From assembly GCF_005938645.2 (NCBI RefSeq), contig NZ_CP042171.1, positions 1,116,001-1,180,000 on the forward strand: 64,000 nt of DNA, given 5' to 3'. Of the stretch, positions 7,685-26,124 are shown piece after piece. Numbering within the stretch: the first letter of the stretch is position 1; the number at the start of each line of letters is the position of its first letter. Below the pieces are notes generated by a model. The model did not search any database, was not told the origin of the DNA, and saw only the letters and a program-made list of their open reading frames with translations. The position numbers were made by a program, and so were the translations under genes. The DNA is from Pedobacter sp. KBS0701 (lineage in GTDB: Bacteria; Bacteroidota; Bacteroidia; Sphingobacteriales; Sphingobacteriaceae).

Positions 7685-8045
7685 GCGTGTAGTCACATCT
7701 TTTTGAGAATAGTTTAGGCGTCATGCTAGCTTGCTTTAATAGCACACAGGTTTTACCGAAGAACGCCGTCAATCCCAAGAGCCGGTGAAATCAAAAAAAC
7801 AGGTGCACAACAGTAAAAATGGCACTAACAAACCTGAAACGCAGTGGTTTTGTGTTCATAACCGATAATTTGATTTTTTTAAAAAAAATATTGAACACAA
7901 AACGAAGTGTCGCTGTTTTTTTGATGAGCATAGGATTGTGCAAGAGGCTCATTGCTGGATCCGATAGCCATCGGATGACAATGCGCTTTGGGTACTTTGG
8001 CGCTCCAAAGTACCATGCCTCCGCGGCAAAGAGCGGGAAAATGAA
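7685..8045. repeat. dispersed intergenic repeat, copy 1 (about 360 bp)
   Basis: Nearly the whole stretch recurs in reverse orientation at 38690-39145: blocks around cacatcttttt, agtttaggcg, caatcccaagagccgg, caaaaaaacaggtgcac, acctgaaacgcagtggtttt, gaacacaaaacgaagtg, tcattgctggat and gctttgggtactttggcgc all match. Copy 1 lacks about 50 bp found in copy 2 and carries an extra 15 bp (the palindrome at 7959-7976). Short open frames exist on both strands (for example 7819-8073) but they do not survive in copy 2, so I treat this as non-coding repeat, not genes. Confidence 0.85.
7959..7976. repeat. short palindrome inserted in repeat copy 1
   Basis: atccgatagccatcggat. At the matching place in copy 2 (around 38811-38822, read on the other strand) the sequence is simply gctggattgac; here it is gctggat + 15 bp + tgac. 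This is a filled site against an empty site of the palindrome family seen in the tRNA-Leu locus. Confidence 0.8.
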
Positions 8046-8209
8046 CATTGCTCTAAAATTATTTGTTGAGTAATCAAGATAAGTTAATGGCAGAAAAGAT
8101 GCTGAAATAAGTTCAGCATGATGATCGCTTTAGTAATTGTACTTGATAGGACATTGTTCAGGATGGAAATGAACACACTGGTTGATAAATTTTTCATCCG
8201 GTATTTATG

Positions 8210-8238
8210 AATGCTGCGCAGATTTATCTAAGTTTGTT
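8210..8238 (+). promoter_or_regulatory. promoter-like segment shared with ftsK; decides the start of the next gene
   Basis: aatgctgcgcag followed by tttatctaagtttgtt repeats the ftsK promoter at 3019-3045 with one substitution. TAAGTTTG (8229-8236) is a -7 box. The transcript would begin about at the ATG at 8243, which argues against translation from the earlier ATG at 8207. Confidence 0.5.
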
Positions 8239-8242
8239 TCCA

Positions 8243-8515
8243 ATGTCATTGCCACTAACAAACCATACTTTAGAGAAATTAGAAGCCCTGCTTTTTGCTA
8301 TGGGTTATAAGGTACGTTATGAGAAAGGGAACTTTAAAACCGGTTCGTGCCTGCTCGAACACAATAAGGTTGTTGTAGTCAATAAGTTCTCCAACCTGGA
8401 AGGAAAAATTGCCGCATTGATTACCCTGGTAAAACAGACCAATGCCGACGAAAACCTTTTAGACGAGAAACAACGGCAGTTTTATCAATCTTTACAACAA
8501 ACCGAATTATTTTAA
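8243..8515 (+). CDS. conserved small hypothetical protein (90 aa)
   Basis: I do not know a function for this protein. It is soluble, with a helical N-terminus (LTNHTLEKLEALLFAMGYKV), a central beta segment (VRYEKGNFKTGSCLLEHNKVVVVN) and a helical C-terminus. An upstream ATG at 8207 would add 12 residues, but those codons coincide with a promoter-like sequence shared with ftsK, so the ATG at 8243 is preferred; the message could then be leaderless. It precedes the PhnP-like gene by 50 bp on the same strand and probably shares its transcript. Confidence 0.65.
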   Translation: MSLPLTNHTLEKLEALLFAMGYKVRYEKGNFKTGSCLLEHNKVVVVNKFSNLEGKIAALITLVKQTNADENLLDEKQRQFYQSLQQTELF

Positions 8516-8564
8516 TGAAGATACAACGCAAGGATTACTTATTTAGAAAGGAAAGTTTAAGCAG

Positions 8565-9329
8565 ATGAAAGTTACTTTTTTAGGTACCGGCACATCACAA
8601 GGCGTTCCTGTAATTGCTTGTAATTGCGAAGTTTGCAGGTCTTCAGATCATAGAGACAACCGCTTAAGAACATCTGTTTTATTAGAACTGGCTGATAAAA
8701 CCATTGTAGTAGATAGCGGACCAGACTTTCGTTACCAGCTTTTGCGCGAAAAGGTAAAAGATCTGGATGCCGTTCTGTTTACGCACGAACACAAAGACCA
8801 TATTGCAGGTTTGGATGATATCAGGCCATTTAATTACCTGCTCCATAAGGTAATTGATGTTTATGCTACCGAAAGGGTACAAACAGCATTAAAAAGAGAG
8901 TTTTATTACATCTTTGCCGAAACCAAATACCATGGTTTACCGCAGATTAATTTACATACGGTAACCAATGGCGAAGATTTTAAAATTGGCGAAACTACCA
9001 TCATTCCATTTGAGGTAATGCACCATTTATTGCCGATTACAGGCTACCGGATTGGCGACTTTACCTACATTACCGATGCCAAAACGATATCGGAGCAAAG
9101 TTTTGAAAAAATAAAGGGAACAAAAACATTGGTGCTTAATGCTTTGCAGAAAGAACCGCACATTTCGCATTTTACCCTGGGTGAGGCCATTGCCTTTGCA
9201 GAAAGGGTAGGGGCCGAAACCACCTATCTTACACACATTAGCCATACTTTGGGTAAACATGCCGATGTTGAAAAAGACTTGCCATCGAACATCAGGCTGG
9301 CTTACGATGGGTTTAGTTTCGAATGTTAG
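8565..9329 (+). CDS. MBL-fold phosphodiesterase, PhnP-like
   Basis: Cytoplasmic metallo-beta-lactamase-fold hydrolase. The metal motif THEHKDH (H74, H76, D78, H79) is intact, later histidines are at HH (about 153) and THISH near the end. The N-terminal C19-x-C21-x-x-C24 matches the extra structural zinc site of PhnP, and GTGTSQGVPVIACNC is the family's opening. PhnP opens phosphoribosyl cyclic phosphate in the C-P lyase pathway; no phn gene is nearby, so a general cyclic phosphodiesterase role is safer. Length (254 aa) is normal. Confidence 0.85.
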   Translation: MKVTFLGTGTSQGVPVIACNCEVCRSSDHRDNRLRTSVLLELADKTIVVDSGPDFRYQLLREKVKDLDAVLFTHEHKDHIAGLDDIRPFNYLLHKVIDVYATERVQTALKREFYYIFAETKYHGLPQINLHTVTNGEDFKIGETTIIPFEVMHHLLPITGYRIGDFTYITDAKTISEQSFEKIKGTKTLVLNALQKEPHISHFTLGEAIAFAERVGAETTYLTHISHTLGKHADVEKDLPSNIRLAYDGFSFEC

Positions 9330-9363
9330 CGTTATTTAACGTAAAAGCTTCATTCGTTTGTGA

Positions 9364-10002
9364 TTAAAAAACAAAACTGCCGCAATACGTACTCGCAGAT
9401 ATCCCCATTCTGTCGTCTGCAATGAAAGCCATCCAGGTGTGAAATGTCTTTCCTTTATAAAAGGAAGGAATTTCCAGGCTTTCCCTTTCTTTTAACCGCC
9501 TGGCACCACTTGTTTCATAAATGGCTGTTTTGTTGTCCACATCATAAACCATTAACATCACCTGGTCATTTTGCCTGGTGTAATCGCCGTTAGAGTTATC
9601 CGTCCAGCTGAAATGTACACCCGCATCGTCGTGTTCCAGCTTAACAACCTTTGCACCGCTGAGGTTTCCAAAGCTTAAACGTACAGCGGCATAGTCGATT
9701 TCACCGGCGGCATTTTGGGCATTCAGCATGTTATAGGATTTTGCAACGTTATGGGCGGTCATCATGCGTTTTTTCGACTCCAGGTTAAAACCAATCCTGA
9801 TAAAAGCAACAATCGGACTTAAGAAGGTCTGCATCATGGTAAAACGGGATCTGCAGGCCTTTTGATCAGCACTACCGGTTTTGTTTTTTATGGACTTTCT
9901 GCGTTTGCTCCTGATGACCCATTTTCCGTTCAGGTAATAACCGGTCACGGCGCCCACCGTCCCGGTGAAGCCACCGTTAATTCCGTTTTCTATTTTTCCC
10001 AT
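9364..10002 (-). CDS. DUF6266 family protein (212 aa)
   Basis: The opening MGKIENGINGGFTGTVGAV and the following GYYLNGKWVIRSKRR with a basic stretch are typical of DUF6266, a Bacteroidota family of unknown function whose members often occur in several copies per genome. The C-terminal half has a fibronectin-like beta pattern (HFSWTDNSNGDYTRQNDQVML, then TWMAFIADDR). No signal peptide is present. It is a single gene on the minus strand, convergent with the PhnP-like gene. Confidence 0.75.
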   Translation of the reverse strand: MGKIENGINGGFTGTVGAVTGYYLNGKWVIRSKRRKSIKNKTGSADQKACRSRFTMMQTFLSPIVAFIRIGFNLESKKRMMTAHNVAKSYNMLNAQNAAGEIDYAAVRLSFGNLSGAKVVKLEHDDAGVHFSWTDNSNGDYTRQNDQVMLMVYDVDNKTAIYETSGARRLKERESLEIPSFYKGKTFHTWMAFIADDRMGISASTYCGSFVF

Positions 10003-10279
10003 GATTGCATTAATTTAGCTTATACAATATAGTAAATTGCTGATTGATAAACAAATAAGTTGTATTTTCTTCTGACTTAAGTCGATTTTTATTCGGGCAA
10101 AATTGTCATAAGTCCGACGAAACCCCGTCTTAAGTGCGTCGAAAGTCCGACGCAACGGTTACGCTATTATGTTGGTGTCAAGTACTAAAATAAGTTTACA
10201 ATTTGTCCGATACTAGAAAAGATTTGCCATGTTAAGATTTGCTTTCCGGAATTTAAGTTCAAAAAATATTTTATGAATG

Positions 10280-10311
10280 TTGCAGCGCACTATGGTTAAT
10301 TTATATATTTG
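10280..10311 (+). promoter_or_regulatory. promoter of the tRNA-Leu locus
   Basis: ttg at 10280-10282 and tatatttg at 10304-10311, 21 bp apart, fit the Bacteroidota -33/-7 pattern (TTTG, TAnnTTTG). Transcription would begin near 10318, directly before the first partial tRNA unit at 10323 and 330 bp before the intact tRNA. Confidence 0.7.
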
Positions 10312-10322
10312 CAACAATTCAA

Positions 10323-10648
10323 ACCCAGGTGGCGATCCCGATAACTATCGGGATGGTAGACGCCCTCGGGAATGATTAATTAGTAAATACCCAGGTGGCG
10401 ATCCCGATAGCTATCGGGATGGTAGACGCTTTCGGGAATGATAAATAGTAAATACCCAGGTGGCGATCCCGATAGCTATCGGGATGGTAGACGCTTTCGG
10501 GAATGATAAATAGTAAATACCCAGGTGGCGATCCCGATAGCTATCGGGGTGGTAGACGCTTTCGGGAATGATAAATAGTAAATACCCAGGTGGCGATCCC
10601 GATAGCTATCGGGGTGGTAGACGCTTTCGGGAATGATAAATAGTAAAT
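10323..10648 (+). repeat. tandem array of five truncated tRNA-Leu 5' parts with D-loop palindromes
   Basis: Units start at 10323, 10389, 10454, 10519 and 10584 (period 65-66 bp), followed by the intact tRNA at 10649. Each unit is the first 26 or so nucleotides of the tRNA (acccaggtggcga ... tggtagacgc) with aat of the D-loop replaced by an 18-nt palindrome (tcccgatagctatcggga or a close variant), then a 25-bp spacer (tttcgggaatgataaatag and so on). Unit 1 differs most; units 2-5 are almost identical, with one shared substitution in units 4 and 5. This suggests stepwise duplication. The array lies inside the predicted tRNA precursor. Confidence 0.9.
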
Positions 10649-10732
10649 ACCCAGGTGGCGAAATTGGTAGACGCACCAGCTTGAGGGGCTGGCGCCCGTA
10701 CGGGTGTGGGAGTTCGAATCTCCTCTTGGGTA
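10649..10732 (+). tRNA. tRNA-Leu (anticodon GAG)
   Basis: Full cloverleaf: acceptor acccagg pairs with cttgggt (one G-T), anticodon stem ccagc/gctgg with loop ttgaggg gives GAG (leucine, CUC/CUU codons). A long variable arm (ggcgcccgtacgggtgtg) is as expected for class II tRNA-Leu, and the T-loop is gttcgaatc. The discriminator base is A; CCA is not encoded. It is the only intact tRNA in the window. Confidence 0.95.
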
Positions 10733-10737
10733 CTTTA

Positions 10738-10764
10738 AAGCTTCGGTATCACCGAAGCTTTTTT
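10738..10764 (+). terminator. terminator between tRNA-Leu and the GIY-YIG gene
   Basis: aagcttcggt-atc-accgaagctt followed by TTTT, only 5 bp after the tRNA. It should separate tRNA transcription from the nuclease gene, whose ATG is 9 bp further on. Confidence 0.85.
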
Positions 10765-10772
10765 GTTTGTTT

Positions 10773-11057
10773 ATGGCATCAGTTTATATCCTTTTTTCTA
10801 AAAAAATAAATCGTTTTTACACCGGTAGTTGTCTGGATTTGCTACAGCGATTACAATCGCATAAGGATAAAAGTTTTACGGATAGTTTCACATCTAAGAC
10901 AGAAGACTGGGAACTATTTTTCACTATAGATGACCTTGATTACAAACAGTCTCGATTGATCGAATTACATATCAAAAAAAAGAAAAGTATAATTTATATT
11001 AAAAACTTAAAGCAATATCCTGAGCTGGTAACTAAACTTATTGAGCGATATCGTTAA
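10773..11057 (+). CDS. small GIY-YIG endonuclease (94 aa)
   Basis: Single-domain GIY-YIG nuclease of the UPF0213/YhbQ size class. The two halves of the motif are VYIL (residues 4-7) and YTG (16-18); the conserved arginine is in LLQRLQSH and the catalytic glutamate in RLIELHIKKKK. The ATG at 10773 gives the family's usual N-terminus; an open frame reaching back to 10704 runs through the tRNA and terminator and is not the start. The gene fills the space between the intact tRNA-Leu and a damaged second copy, beginning 41 bp after one and ending 5 bp before the other. A role in cutting at tRNA-Leu sequences is suggested by this position but is inference. Confidence 0.8.
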   Translation: MASVYILFSKKINRFYTGSCLDLLQRLQSHKDKSFTDSFTSKTEDWELFFTIDDLDYKQSRLIELHIKKKKSIIYIKNLKQYPELVTKLIERYR

Positions 11058-11062
11058 AGGCT

Positions 11063-11163
11063 ACCCCGAAGTTATCGGGTTGGTAGACGCACCAGCTTGA
11101 GGGGCTGGCGCCTGTATGGGTGTGGGAGTTCGATCCGATAGCTATCGGATCTCCTCTTGGGTA
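11063..11163 (+). pseudogene. disrupted tRNA-Leu copy with palindromes in D- and T-loops
   Basis: From ttggtagacgc to tgggta this matches the intact tRNA-Leu(GAG), with two changes in the variable arm. Two disruptions make it non-functional: the 5' part is replaced by a degenerate palindrome (cccgaagttatcggg), removing the D-stem, and the T-loop is opened by a net 15-bp insertion that creates the perfect 20-bp palindrome at 11132-11151. A strong terminator follows at 11190. Confidence 0.85.
11132..11151. repeat. palindrome inserted in the T-loop of the tRNA-Leu copy
   Basis: gatccgatagctatcggatc is a perfect 20-bp palindrome. The intact tRNA reads gttcga-atctcc here; this copy reads gttcga + 15 bp + atctcc. 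Confidence 0.85.
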
Positions 11164-11189
11164 CAGTTCTAAGTATTCATGCTTAGTAT

Positions 11190-11378: not shown

Positions 11379-11440
11379 ATTAATTAATTTTGAACACGAG
11401 TAGGACTGGTACCTAAAATAACGTGAGTTATGGGTCATAA

Positions 11441-11940
11441 TTAAAATATACTAGGTTTTCTGTCCAACCAAGAATATGCGCAAATGCCAGCATAAAGATT
11501 TACTAAAGCATTGATTGGGCTTCGATGTCTGGAGTGTTCAATATCGCATACCGTTTTTAGAATATCACTTACCGATTCTATCAGTCCTGTTTTGTTAAGG
11601 AGCATTTTATGTTCCATTGTCAAGAGTTTATTTTTCATGTTCTTTTTCAGCTTTGTTATTAGTAATAATCCCTTATTCATCAAACTTTCTGATGCTTTTG
11701 CATTAATAAACCCTTTGTCTGCAAAAGCGTAGCCTTTGAGGTTTCCAAAGAGTTTAACCATGGTATCAAGGTTGTTGTCGGCAATATTCCCAGGGGTAAA
11801 AAAAGCATTCATGATCTCTCCAAAGGCATTGATAACCAGGAACAATTTAAACCCATAGAACCATCCTGTTGAGCTTTTTCCTCTTGCAGCTTGATTTTTA
11901 TATAAATATTGATATATCTACAATAGGCATTCCAGAAACA
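11441..11940 (-). pseudogene. IS982-family transposase remnant
   Basis: The frame at 11441-11845, extended in sense to about 11915, encodes the C-terminal half of an IS982-type DDE transposase: ARGKSSTGWFYGFKL, LVINAFGEI, TPGNIADN, YAFADKGFI, SRHRSPINALVN. The first catalytic Asp region is lost: reading further upstream meets a stop and frame breaks around 11915-11940, and no N-terminal half is found. I see no clear terminal inverted repeats. It is a dead insertion-sequence fragment next to the tRNA locus. Confidence 0.85.
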
Positions 11941-24280: not shown

Positions 24281-24300
24281 CCAATGCCATTAAGTTAAGG

Positions 24301-24558
24301 GTTTTTAGCCACAGATAAGCACAGATAAACACGGATTTTCATATCTGTGTGCATCCTTTCTATCTGTGGTTAAATTATTTTCTTATGCCTAATGGCTTAA
24401 CTTAATGATATTGGACTTGCGCCAGTGTGGTTTTTAGCCACAGATAAGCACAGATAAACACGGATTTTCATATCTGTGTGCATCCTTTCTATCTGTGGTT
24501 AAATTATTTTCTTATGCCTAATGGCTTAACTTAATAACATTGGACTTGCGCCAGTGTG
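24301..24558. repeat. tandem 129-bp hairpin repeat (two units)
   Basis: Two units, 24301-24429 and 24430-24558, differ at only a few positions (taatgatattgg against taataacattgg). Each unit can fold on itself: gccacagataagcacagata pairs with tatctgtg and tatctgtgg further on. The flanking ccaatgccattaagttaa before unit 1 is complementary to ttaacttaatgatattgg at its end, so unit 1 with its flank is one large inverted repeat, like a small MITE. Confidence 0.8.
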
Positions 24559-24729: not shown

Positions 24730-26124
24730 ATGAACAAAAATTTCTCGATTCTACTGATTGCATGCAGTCTTATCCTAAACTTCTCCTGTAAGAAGAGCCT
24801 TAATGAGGCACAAACCGATCATTCCCGCTTAGATTCCTTAAATAAAAGTGCCTTCATTGGGATTGATCAGGCTAAAAGCTATGCGCTAAGTTTAAATCGT
24901 AAACCCAGTGGTAAATTAATGTCGGGCTCCTTTGCCTCGGTTTCTAATTTGGCAAGCCGGAAGGGAACTTCCAGTGAGACGAATAGCGTAGATACCGTTT
25001 TTACGGTAAAAGATCGGGCTGGCATTAACGCCTTCTATATTATCAATTTTAAACCGAACGGATTTTGTATCGTATCTGCTGATGAAAGGGCACCATCGTT
25101 ACTCGCATATTCTGAGACTGCCTCATTCAACAAAGACAATGGAACGGAAGGTATACTGAGTTGGATGAGTGATGTTAAGCATAGCATAGAGAACATTCGT
25201 GCAAATCAATTTGCAATTAAACCCACTACTACATCTGGTGTAGCCATTTCAAATAGTAAAAAAACAACCTCCTGGGTGAAGGAGCAATTGCCTGCAACCA
25301 GCGATGTAGCCATTTCGAGTGGTAAAAAAACAGCCGCTTGGGTGAATGGTCAATTGCCTGCAACCAGCGATGATAATGTCCTGATCGAACATAAAGATCC
25401 TTTGGTACAAACTTACTGGGGACAAGGTGACGGATACAATGACCAATGTGACTATATGAGTTGCGGAAACACCTACGCAACCAACGGCAGGGCGGTTACC
25501 GGATGTGTAGCAACAGCCATCGCCCAGATTGCGGCCTATCATCAGTTCCCGTCTTCTTACAACTGGAGTTCCATGTCTAATTATTACGGAACACCCGAAA
25601 CGGCCAGATTAATGCATAACATCGGCGTAGCGGTAGATATGGACTATAAATGTGACGGGTCGGGAACAAATGGCGGTACAAAAACTGTTGATGGTTTTAA
25701 TTTATTAGGTTACTCCATGTCCAAAAGGGAATTCAAGGCATTCTCTGCCACCGATCCGACCAATGATTTTTTAAACGAACTGCGCGCTAACAGGCCTTTT
25801 ATCATTTCCGGAGGCAGAAAGGGTTCCTTTATTTTCTTTAATACCTATAAAGGCGGTCATGAATGGGTATGCGATGGATTTTACCGCTATGAATATACCC
25901 GTATTGTGCAAATACCTGTAGATGACTATTTTGACGAACGCGTCGAAGTAACTTATCCAACTTATTTTCATATGAACTGGGGTTGGAACGGTTCTTATAA
26001 CGGATGGTATATGGTTGGGGATTTTGGGCCTACGATTACTAACTTCCGGGATGTTTACAGAGATGATTTTGAGGGTACTTACAATTATAAAAATATCATG
26101 TACTATAATATAAAACCGTTATGA
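24730..26124 (+). CDS. C10-family cysteine protease (streptopain-like) lipoprotein
   Basis: Secreted or surface cysteine protease. It has a lipoprotein signal (LILNFSC, Cys20, then KKS) and an N-terminal propeptide of the SpeB/C10 type (FYIINFKPNGFCIVSADER). The mature domain has the catalytic C259 (AVTGCVATAIAQIAAYHQFP), H377 (GGHEWVCDGF) and N416 (HMNWGWNG). Between propeptide and protease lies a 22-residue tandem duplication at about residues 171-214 (VAIS...KKT..WV..QLPATSD twice). The next gene overlaps by 4 bp. Family members cleave host or dietary proteins and are made as zymogens. Confidence 0.92.
   Translation: MNKNFSILLIACSLILNFSCKKSLNEAQTDHSRLDSLNKSAFIGIDQAKSYALSLNRKPSGKLMSGSFASVSNLASRKGTSSETNSVDTVFTVKDRAGINAFYIINFKPNGFCIVSADERAPSLLAYSETASFNKDNGTEGILSWMSDVKHSIENIRANQFAIKPTTTSGVAISNSKKTTSWVKEQLPATSDVAISSGKKTAAWVNGQLPATSDDNVLIEHKDPLVQTYWGQGDGYNDQCDYMSCGNTYATNGRAVTGCVATAIAQIAAYHQFPSSYNWSSMSNYYGTPETARLMHNIGVAVDMDYKCDGSGTNGGTKTVDGFNLLGYSMSKREFKAFSATDPTNDFLNELRANRPFIISGGRKGSFIFFNTYKGGHEWVCDGFYRYEYTRIVQIPVDDYFDERVEVTYPTYFHMNWGWNGSYNGWYMVGDFGPTITNFRDVYRDDFEGTYNYKNIMYYNIKPL
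25240..25371 (+). repeat. in-frame 66-bp tandem duplication inside the C10 protease gene
   Basis: Two units (25240-25305, 25306-25371), each coding 22 residues with gtagccatttc at the start and caattgcctgcaaccagcga at the end. They lie in the linker before the protease domain, so the duplication lengthens a region probably removed on activation. Confidence 0.85.

Follow-up and report, generated by a model that had tools for sequence, protein, structure and literature searches.

A short palindromic insert of Pedobacter and the small GIY-YIG nuclease cassette that accompanies it in tRNA genes

Background

Short palindromes present at many sites are familiar from the palindromic elements of Rickettsia and Wolbachia and from the GC clusters and double-hairpin elements of mitochondria. 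Our subject is a further such sequence in Pedobacter sp. KBS0701, the 14-bp palindrome CCGATAGCTATCGG, together with a gene for a small GIY-YIG nuclease located between two transfer RNA (tRNA)-Leu copies. Both occur in a 64-kb stretch of the genome (contig NZ_CP042171.1, positions 1,116,001 to 1,180,000; hereafter the window), in which a first-pass annotation had drawn attention to the palindrome. Unlike the elements of Rickettsia, Wolbachia and mitochondria, the insert described here adds 15 bp net and is tied physically to a nuclease gene embedded in tRNA sequence. We lean towards reading the palindrome as a hairpin that accompanies a small mobile element of the homing type in tRNA genes, the hairpins plugging the dead pieces.

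The nearest described case is SegB of phages T4 and T6, a free-standing homing endonuclease of the GIY-YIG type that is encoded in the tRNA region and amplifies tRNA segments (PMC13096335). The two cases are alike in having a GIY-YIG gene that adjoins tRNA genes of many types (PMC13096335). The cassette analyzed here differs from SegB in being located in a bacterial chromosome, in encoding a single-domain protein of 94 amino acids, and in carrying broken tRNA pieces with hairpin inserts. The palindrome itself is best compared with the CGTC-tagged repetitive extragenic palindromes (REPs) known in Bacteroidetes (PMC3733652) and with the REP-associated tyrosine transposase (RAYT) system. The 14-mer shares with these a palindromic form, a position mostly outside open reading frames (ORFs) and a high copy number, and tags of the REP type are close to 40 of 51 solo sites. 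It differs in being an insert within or beside such repeats, and within tRNA copies, without a tag of its own; inserts of this type are unmentioned in the passages on the Bacteroidetes REPs (PMC3733652). Among the top-ranked matches of a literature search by title and beginning of abstract, from which subscription journals were mostly missing, there was no description of the tRNA/GIY-YIG cassettes or of the palindrome. Likewise, a full-text search with the same gap found the 14-mer in no paper, and the 12-bp core had one match, in a glioma paper.

Results

Comparison of the window with related loci indicates that a segment containing tRNA 5' pieces, a complete tRNA and the nuclease gene has split one tRNA-Leu gene and left a broken copy of it at the distal end (Table 1). 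The corresponding locus of a relative (L017, genome G128) contains one tRNA-Leu, whose 5' flank matches that of the first tRNA piece in the window and whose 3' flank matches that of the last, broken copy; it is this single tRNA with matching outer flanks that leads us to conclude that a segment opened the gene in the window. The palindrome cores of the five upstream units start at 10338, 10404, 10469, 10534 and 10599, and the program TRF delimits a tandem array of 65-bp units at 10323-10661. The broken tRNA pieces bear hairpins (TCCCGATAGCTATCGGGA and relatives). The first-pass annotation had claimed insertion footprints at three sites, and all three are present where it placed them, each with a net gain of 15 bp. 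In the T-loop of the broken copy GTTCGA/ATCTCC is split by TCCGATAGCTATCGG at 11134-11148, in the D-loop of the tandem units GGCGA-AAT-TGG has become GGCGA-18 nt-TGG, and in a dispersed repeat (site 3) GCTGGAT/TGAC is split at 7959-7976. The three footprints do not represent three independent events, two of them belonging to one cassette made of split tRNA, intact tRNA and GIY-YIG gene. Both the nuclease gene and the D-loop palindrome of the broken copy, CCCCGAAGTTATCGGG, had escaped it.

The D-loop and T-loop fills of the window cassette also occur in cassettes of other species. The loci L023 and L024 have the layout of the window with one upstream unit, and single units of this type were found in L018, L023, L024 and L039. 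In L174 the tandem unit consists of a tRNA 5' piece with its D-loop palindrome, then the nuclease gene itself and a duplicate of the 5' flank; two such units are followed by an intact tRNA, and one of the two nuclease copies is broken by a stop. When the broken copy of the window is folded as RNA its two palindromes can pair (z -2.07, 7 of 200 shuffles being equally good). Two further arrangements were seen among these loci. In broken tRNA copies at L173 (1465-1500) and L177 (near 1755) the D-loop palindrome has fused with that of the T-loop and the central part of the tRNA is lost, which looks like the outcome of recombination between the two hairpins. A broken tRNA-Asn-like copy at L312 (1817-1849) holds two fused hairpins, TCCCGATAACTATCGGGA and then CGAAAGCTTTCGGGA, as though one of them had inserted into the other, and is again 15 nt longer.

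A search for a linked nuclease or transposase had been proposed with the first-pass annotation, and the nuclease gene lies between the two tRNA-Leu copies, its relatives often adjoining such hairpins. The 94-amino acid protein scores 32.5 bits against PF01541 (cut-off 22.6) and is the sole match in the KBS0701 genome at E<=1. Residues Y5, Y16, R26, H30, E64 and N78, which we take to be the GIY-YIG catalytic residues, are invariant across 10 homologues. Five AlphaFold2 models were obtained, the best with a mean predicted local distance difference test score of 87 and three below 54. The best model has UPF0213, Slx1, UvrC and the GIY-YIG domain of I-TevI among its top PDB structure matches, weakly (best E 0.003); the fold is alike in this predicted model and the sequence only distantly so. 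A PDB sequence search with the nuclease profile gave no GIY-YIG match and five weak unrelated ones, and the nearest NCBIfam model, a group I intron endonuclease, reached 21.2 bits, below its cut-off of 56. Other candidate identities for the locus were rejected. An Rfam scan of the window returned only tRNA at gathering scores and no group I or II intron, PADLOC gave only marginal matches to anti-phage defence systems (best E 0.003), and one scan of IMG/VR contigs for a viral origin produced 27 pattern matches with no relative confirmed.

A profile built from ten homologues of the nuclease was then searched in 395 Bacteroidia genomes and matched 105 of them at E<=1e-8; beyond the class, matches at E<=1e-12 were obtained in four genomes of the phylum. 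Similar cassettes are located at Leu, Asn, Met, Val, Phe, Thr, Ala and Lys tRNA genes and are sometimes in tandem (five copies 364-416 bp apart in G488, six at ~381 bp in G715, three at 358 bp in G749, and others). The 29 best loci outside the genus (1.8-3.3 kb each) include a tRNA gene in 25 cases (Leu, Val, Asn, Met, Thr, Phe, Gly) and a palindrome of the CCGAT-N4-ATCGG type in 28, though in a few cases a long way from the nuclease. Among 40 weaker loci a tRNA is present within 250 bp in 32, and hairpins of another type, in which outer TCCCG/CGGGA encloses a different core, are common and in many cases recur within a locus. A sense tRNA ending no more than 250 bp upstream of the nuclease was found at 7/16 loci of the genus, 16/29 of the best and 30/40 of the weaker class loci, and 12/15 of the phylum loci. 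Hairpins downstream of the nuclease were counted as any CCG...CGG with a stem of at least 7 within 170 bp, with controls from the same loci. They are present at 8/16, 18/29, 17/40 and 13/15 loci of these sets, respectively, versus 18/1164 controls, where the phylum set overlaps the others by repeating class genomes and L174 and L181 overlap within the genus set. Hairpin cores are shared by 54/149 pairs from the same locus versus 26/4901 pairs from different loci (canonical core excluded; terminators and tandem duplicates included). Alignment of intact tRNAs with broken copies locates hairpins in the D, anticodon, variable and T arms. At the level of genomes, the exact 14-mer occurs in 28/29 of those with a strong nuclease match (E<=1e-24) versus 91/366 others, and at the loose threshold in 62/105 nuclease-positive genomes versus 57/290 others.

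The history of the nuclease gene was compared with that of a neighbouring gene encoding a metallo-beta-lactamase (MBL)-fold protein. Silent divergence between KBS0701 and G142 is 0.094 for the nuclease and 0.743 for the MBL gene, between KBS0701 and G089 it is 0.094 and 0.792, and between KBS0701 and G085 it is 0.074 and 2.17, the last value being near saturation. In these three species pairs the silent divergence of the nuclease gene is thus lower than that of its neighbour by a factor of 8 to 29. Against G108 and G004 the silent divergence of the nuclease is saturated (not computable), the MBL gene giving 0.91 and 0.83. In G089 and G085 the cassette stands out as an island, identity per 100 bp being mostly 88-97%, and the directly adjoining sequence cannot be aligned; in G142 the left cassette flank is alignable as well. 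As far as sequence comparison goes, the discordant divergence and the island pattern fit repeated lateral entry into one site. With regard to the traits of homing endonuclease genes, the gene encodes a nuclease domain of a homing superfamily (PF01541 above cut-off, GIY-YIG fold neighbours), has a history discordant with that of the one neighbour gene compared, and has an empty allele in L017.

A genome-wide count of the palindrome against expectation, suggested at the outset, supports a real excess. CCGATAGCTATCGG occurs exactly 30 times in the KBS0701 genome versus 0 for a reversed-pattern control, and allowing up to two mismatches gives 111 sites versus 10; the window alone has 7 such matches where shuffling predicts 0.16. 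The net length of the insert was determined in a sample of 846,398 bp of this genome, consisting of 37 merged segments chosen around palindromes and covering 57 of the 111 near-exact sites, including all 30 exact ones. The flanks of each site were joined and an unfilled copy of the same repeat was sought by short-repeat BLAST, whose alignments can be off by one base. An empty repeat copy was found elsewhere in the sample for 41 of the 57 sites and for 16 there was none; relative to the best empty copy the insert measures 15 bp in 39 of the 41, 14 in one and 16 in one. Six repeat families show anchor spacing peaks 15 apart (10/25, 13/28, 5/20, 5/20, 10/25 and 0/15), with 20/8, 5/2, 11/7, 12/3, 7/4 and 3/9 empty/filled copies. 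Another 13 anchor pairs are spaced differently (9, 19, 26, 30, 37, 40, 45, 53, 57, 58), some being chance pairings and three a different, 24-bp insert. The latter, TACCTGTACCGATTTTACATCGGTA, lengthens three copies of a GAGCGGAGTGC...AACGCAGTCGAG repeat (near 1,743,170, near 2,325,050, and a third copy). Best empty copies in further genomes yielded 15 bp in 19 of 25 sites of Pedobacter alluvionis DSM 19624 (G043), with 14 in two and no empty copy for four, and 15 bp in 18 of 39 sites of G055, with 14 in six (at least two of them misaligned filled copies), 17 in one and no empty copy for 14. Fewer sites were informative in G027 (10 sites: 15 bp in two, 14 in one, no empty copy for seven), G031 (12 sites: 13 bp in one, no empty copy for 11) and G026 (8 sites: 15 bp in one, no empty copy for seven). 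The asserted gain of exactly 15 bp therefore stands as the rule in Pedobacter and fails as a strict statement, best empty copies also yielding 13, 14, 16 and 17; the freely varying length that would speak against a defined insert is absent in KBS0701. The proposal that the outer bases adapt to the site was borne out, as a perfect palindrome forms around the core. Six copies have AAC[14]GTT and one has AAG[14]CTT in place of AACTT, GAATC has become GAT[14]ATC, and GACTG has become GAT[14]ATG; in these examples 1-3 target bases are swapped and the net gain is still 15.

Filled and empty copies between species agree with the description of a recently mobile mini-palindrome too small to encode anything. 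One site is filled in P. alluvionis and empty in its KBS0701 orthologue (+15, 94% identity over 803 bp), the reverse case is filled in KBS0701 and empty in P. alluvionis (+15, 86% identity over 774 bp), and a third orthologous site is filled in both. Such pairs indicate that insertions have occurred after these species separated. The search returned matches for 5/56 KBS0701 sites and 4/25 P. alluvionis sites, showing +15 in four and two, both copies filled in one and one, and one bad alignment (+23); long orthologues of high identity account for only two of the +15 pairs. A wider run of 71 sites against 125 Pedobacter-type loci returned mainly tRNA arrays with scattered lengths (best 40, 20, 17, 18 and others), and only the site at 7961 was used from it. 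For this site 3, 14 loci of relatives were matched, nine show the junction, and 9/9 are empty. Six of the nine represent four genomes (L018=L088, L019, L025=L090 and L028, duplicates being judged by identical match figures), and all six are found upstream of the MBL gene at distances of 452-606 bp and oriented as in the window, where the distance is 460 bp. The place corresponding to site 3 is empty in four relatives, which gives no sign that the filled form is ancestral, and the site may have been filled by conversion from a filled paralogue. All nine filled copies of the GCTGGAT repeat have the same AGCC-centre variant, which points to multiplication of a single filled copy. The palindrome sites are in part non-independent events.

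Sites outside the cassette have a characteristic context. Only 2 of 51 sampled solo sites are wholly within an ORF of at least 120 amino acids (78% of random points are), and in KBS0701 40 of 51 are no more than 40 bp from a CGTCA/TGACG/TTGTCA tag versus 8.8% of random points. Copies per genome range from 0 to 192 within the one genus, and 38 of 145 genomes have at least 10 copies (one mismatch or fewer). Such palindrome-rich genomes make up 13/15 of those with a close nuclease homologue versus 25/130 of those without. A match to the Y1 transposase family PF01797 is found in 36/38 palindrome-rich genomes versus 46/107 others. The KBS0701 genome has two PF01797 matches, one at 5,853,781, and in this respect resembles genomes with REPs; a GTAG/CGTC tag beside the stem-loop is absent, the 14-mer being tagless and the nearby tags belonging to the host repeat. 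The links of the palindrome to the nuclease and to Y1 may both partly reflect kinship.

The window also contains, at 2391-2405, another mini-hairpin that shares the stem of the palindrome and has a loop of 5 nt (CCGAT-N5-ATCGG, with GAAGG and GTAAA among the loops). It lies in larger Pedobacter repeats, again with site-adapted flanks, and has 23 matches in sampled loci, some of them duplicates. Elsewhere in the window, the sequence at 11414-11858 has a 93% copy at 108440-108877 of the genome and looks by eye like a transposase remnant, and TRF reports tandem repeats with two copies each at 24300-24558 (129 bp) and 25239-25372 (66 bp).

Table 1 Coordinates of cassette and palindrome features (window numbering)
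Feature	Position	Strand	Basis or remark
Solo palindrome ATCCGATAGCCATCGGAT in dispersed repeat	7959..7976	+	net +15
Array of five units, each a tRNA-Leu 5' piece with D-loop palindrome and ~25 nt spacer	10323..10648	+	
Intact tRNA-Leu (GAG)	10649..10733	+	ARAGORN; Rfam RF00005, 49.3 bits at 10649-10732
Terminator-like inverted repeat plus T run, separating tRNA and nuclease gene	10738..10761	+	by eye
ORF of 94-amino acid GIY-YIG nuclease	10773..11057	+	PF01541
Broken tRNA-Leu copy where the original gene stood	11063..11164	+	3' flank matches single tRNA of L017
Variant palindrome CCCCGAAGTTATCGGG in D-loop of broken copy	11064..11079	+	
Palindrome GATCCGATAGCTATCGGATC in T-loop of broken copy	11132..11151	+	net +15

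Discussion

We consider a homing-type element of tRNA genes, equipped with a replacement tRNA, the simplest account, because it covers the cassette, the discordant divergence and the broken copies together. Such an element would enter tRNA sites laterally. The putative nuclease would cut uninvaded tRNA genes, and the cassette would be copied in by break repair in the manner of homing endonuclease genes, while the complete tRNA copy it carries would keep the host alive. Hairpins would plug the dead pieces and so protect them from cutting, from recombination with the intact copy and from processing as tRNA. The solo hairpins in REP-like repeats would stem from the same insertion process, followed by multiplication along with the repeats. 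The first candidate for the hairpin-inserting enzyme is the GIY-YIG nuclease.

Several results weigh against this account. The intact cassette tRNA resembles the target while the broken pieces carry the inserts; it should therefore be cut too, unless flanks matter. A CCG...CGG hairpin is missing within 170 bp downstream at 44/100 nuclease loci (overlapping sets), and the canonical core, with two mismatches or fewer, is nearby at only 6/40 of the weaker loci. Conversely, the 25 palindrome-rich genomes without a close nuclease homologue include G055 with 192 palindromes. The genome-level associations were evaluated by Fisher tests, which ignore kinship. Among 46 hairpin inserts located in tRNA copies by ARAGORN coordinates, 24 are in loops, one at a junction and 21 in stems, and 55 of 101 distinct inserts in tRNA copies fail the hairpin criterion, some being imperfect palindromes and many alignment artefacts that run through other sequence. 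The cassette hairpin of G515, TCCCGCAGGTGCGGGA, is confined to the cassette, so that spread does not always follow. The near-saturated MBL divergence in the G085 comparison tempers the discordance, and the dN/dS ratio (nonsynonymous to silent divergence) of the nuclease is 0.81 against G085, 0.29 against G142 and 0.39 against G089. Lastly, internal stops interrupt 6/16 nuclease matches of the genus, which means that many copies are dead; decay of this kind also matches the decay stage of a homing cycle.

Two narrower ideas were abandoned. Strict targeting of loop tips was dropped in view of the 21/46 inserts in stems and of one REP family that is filled at the stem base. The idea that each cassette's own hairpin spreads genome-wide as a rule fits G343, where the cassette hairpin matches genome-wide copies, and fails in G515; in G399 cassette and genomic hairpins are near and not identical.

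A more specific proposal names the nuclease as the agent of spread. The single-domain GIY-YIG protein would act on tRNA- or REP-like DNA and leave or copy a lineage-specific hairpin of 15-18 bp (outer TCCCG/CGGGA, variable core), marking its own cassette in split tRNA genes and spreading. We advance this tentatively and regard it as rather doubtful.

It is about equally doubtful, in our estimate, that the palindromes are REP-type mobile hairpins moved by a Y1 (RAYT-type) transposase, with tRNA remnants as one landing place and the nuclease as a separate matter. The proximity of solo sites to REP tags and the near-constant presence of PF01797 in palindrome-rich genomes are what this explanation would predict. 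However, PF01797 is without a match at E<=0.001 in the rich genomes G065 and G112, and among PF01797-positive genomes the nuclease is still associated with richness (13/15 versus 23/67). The filled REP copies could be mere co-multiplication with REPs, and the presence of hairpins beside the nuclease at different tRNA genes and in different families is left unexplained. A RAYT-like or other trans-acting route, as suggested with the first annotation, may operate, both Y1 and nuclease correlating with the palindromes.

Neutral template switching at quasi-palindromes could copy a hairpin tip into other hairpins and perfect their flanks with no dedicated enzyme. The flanks do become complementary whatever the target base (AACTT giving AAC..GTT six times and AAG..CTT once), and 18/26 one-mismatch sites differ within the four central bases, several of these deriving from one multiplied repeat. 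A specific 14-bp sequence with a net gain of 15 in unrelated repeat families would nevertheless need a donor, and neither the very patchy distribution, from 0 to 192 copies in one genus, nor the tie to the nuclease cassette is accounted for. We regard template switching as unlikely. An excision footprint, in which the 14-mer would represent the fused terminal inverted repeats (CCGATAG...CTATCGG) of a lost transposon, would explain the fixed length and palindromic form and is nonetheless highly improbable, since CCGATAG without CTATCGG (at least four mismatches) is at background, with 151 occurrences in 1.8 Mb (overlapping loci included) against ~155 expected by base composition, only 7 of the 151 lie in a REP-like context, and their next 53 bases share no sequence by eye.

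Conclusions

The homing-type reading joins two puzzles, namely the fixed-length spread of a short non-coding sequence and the small GIY-YIG genes beside tRNA genes of Bacteroidia. The palindrome provides dozens of natural filled/empty pairs for studying palindrome insertion. Should the nuclease itself move the hairpin, the latter would be among the smallest mobile DNA units in a genome. If the homing-type reading is true, an element equipped with a substitute tRNA would invade essential tRNA genes of these bacteria time and again, and repeated tRNA fragments such as those in the window would be its debris.

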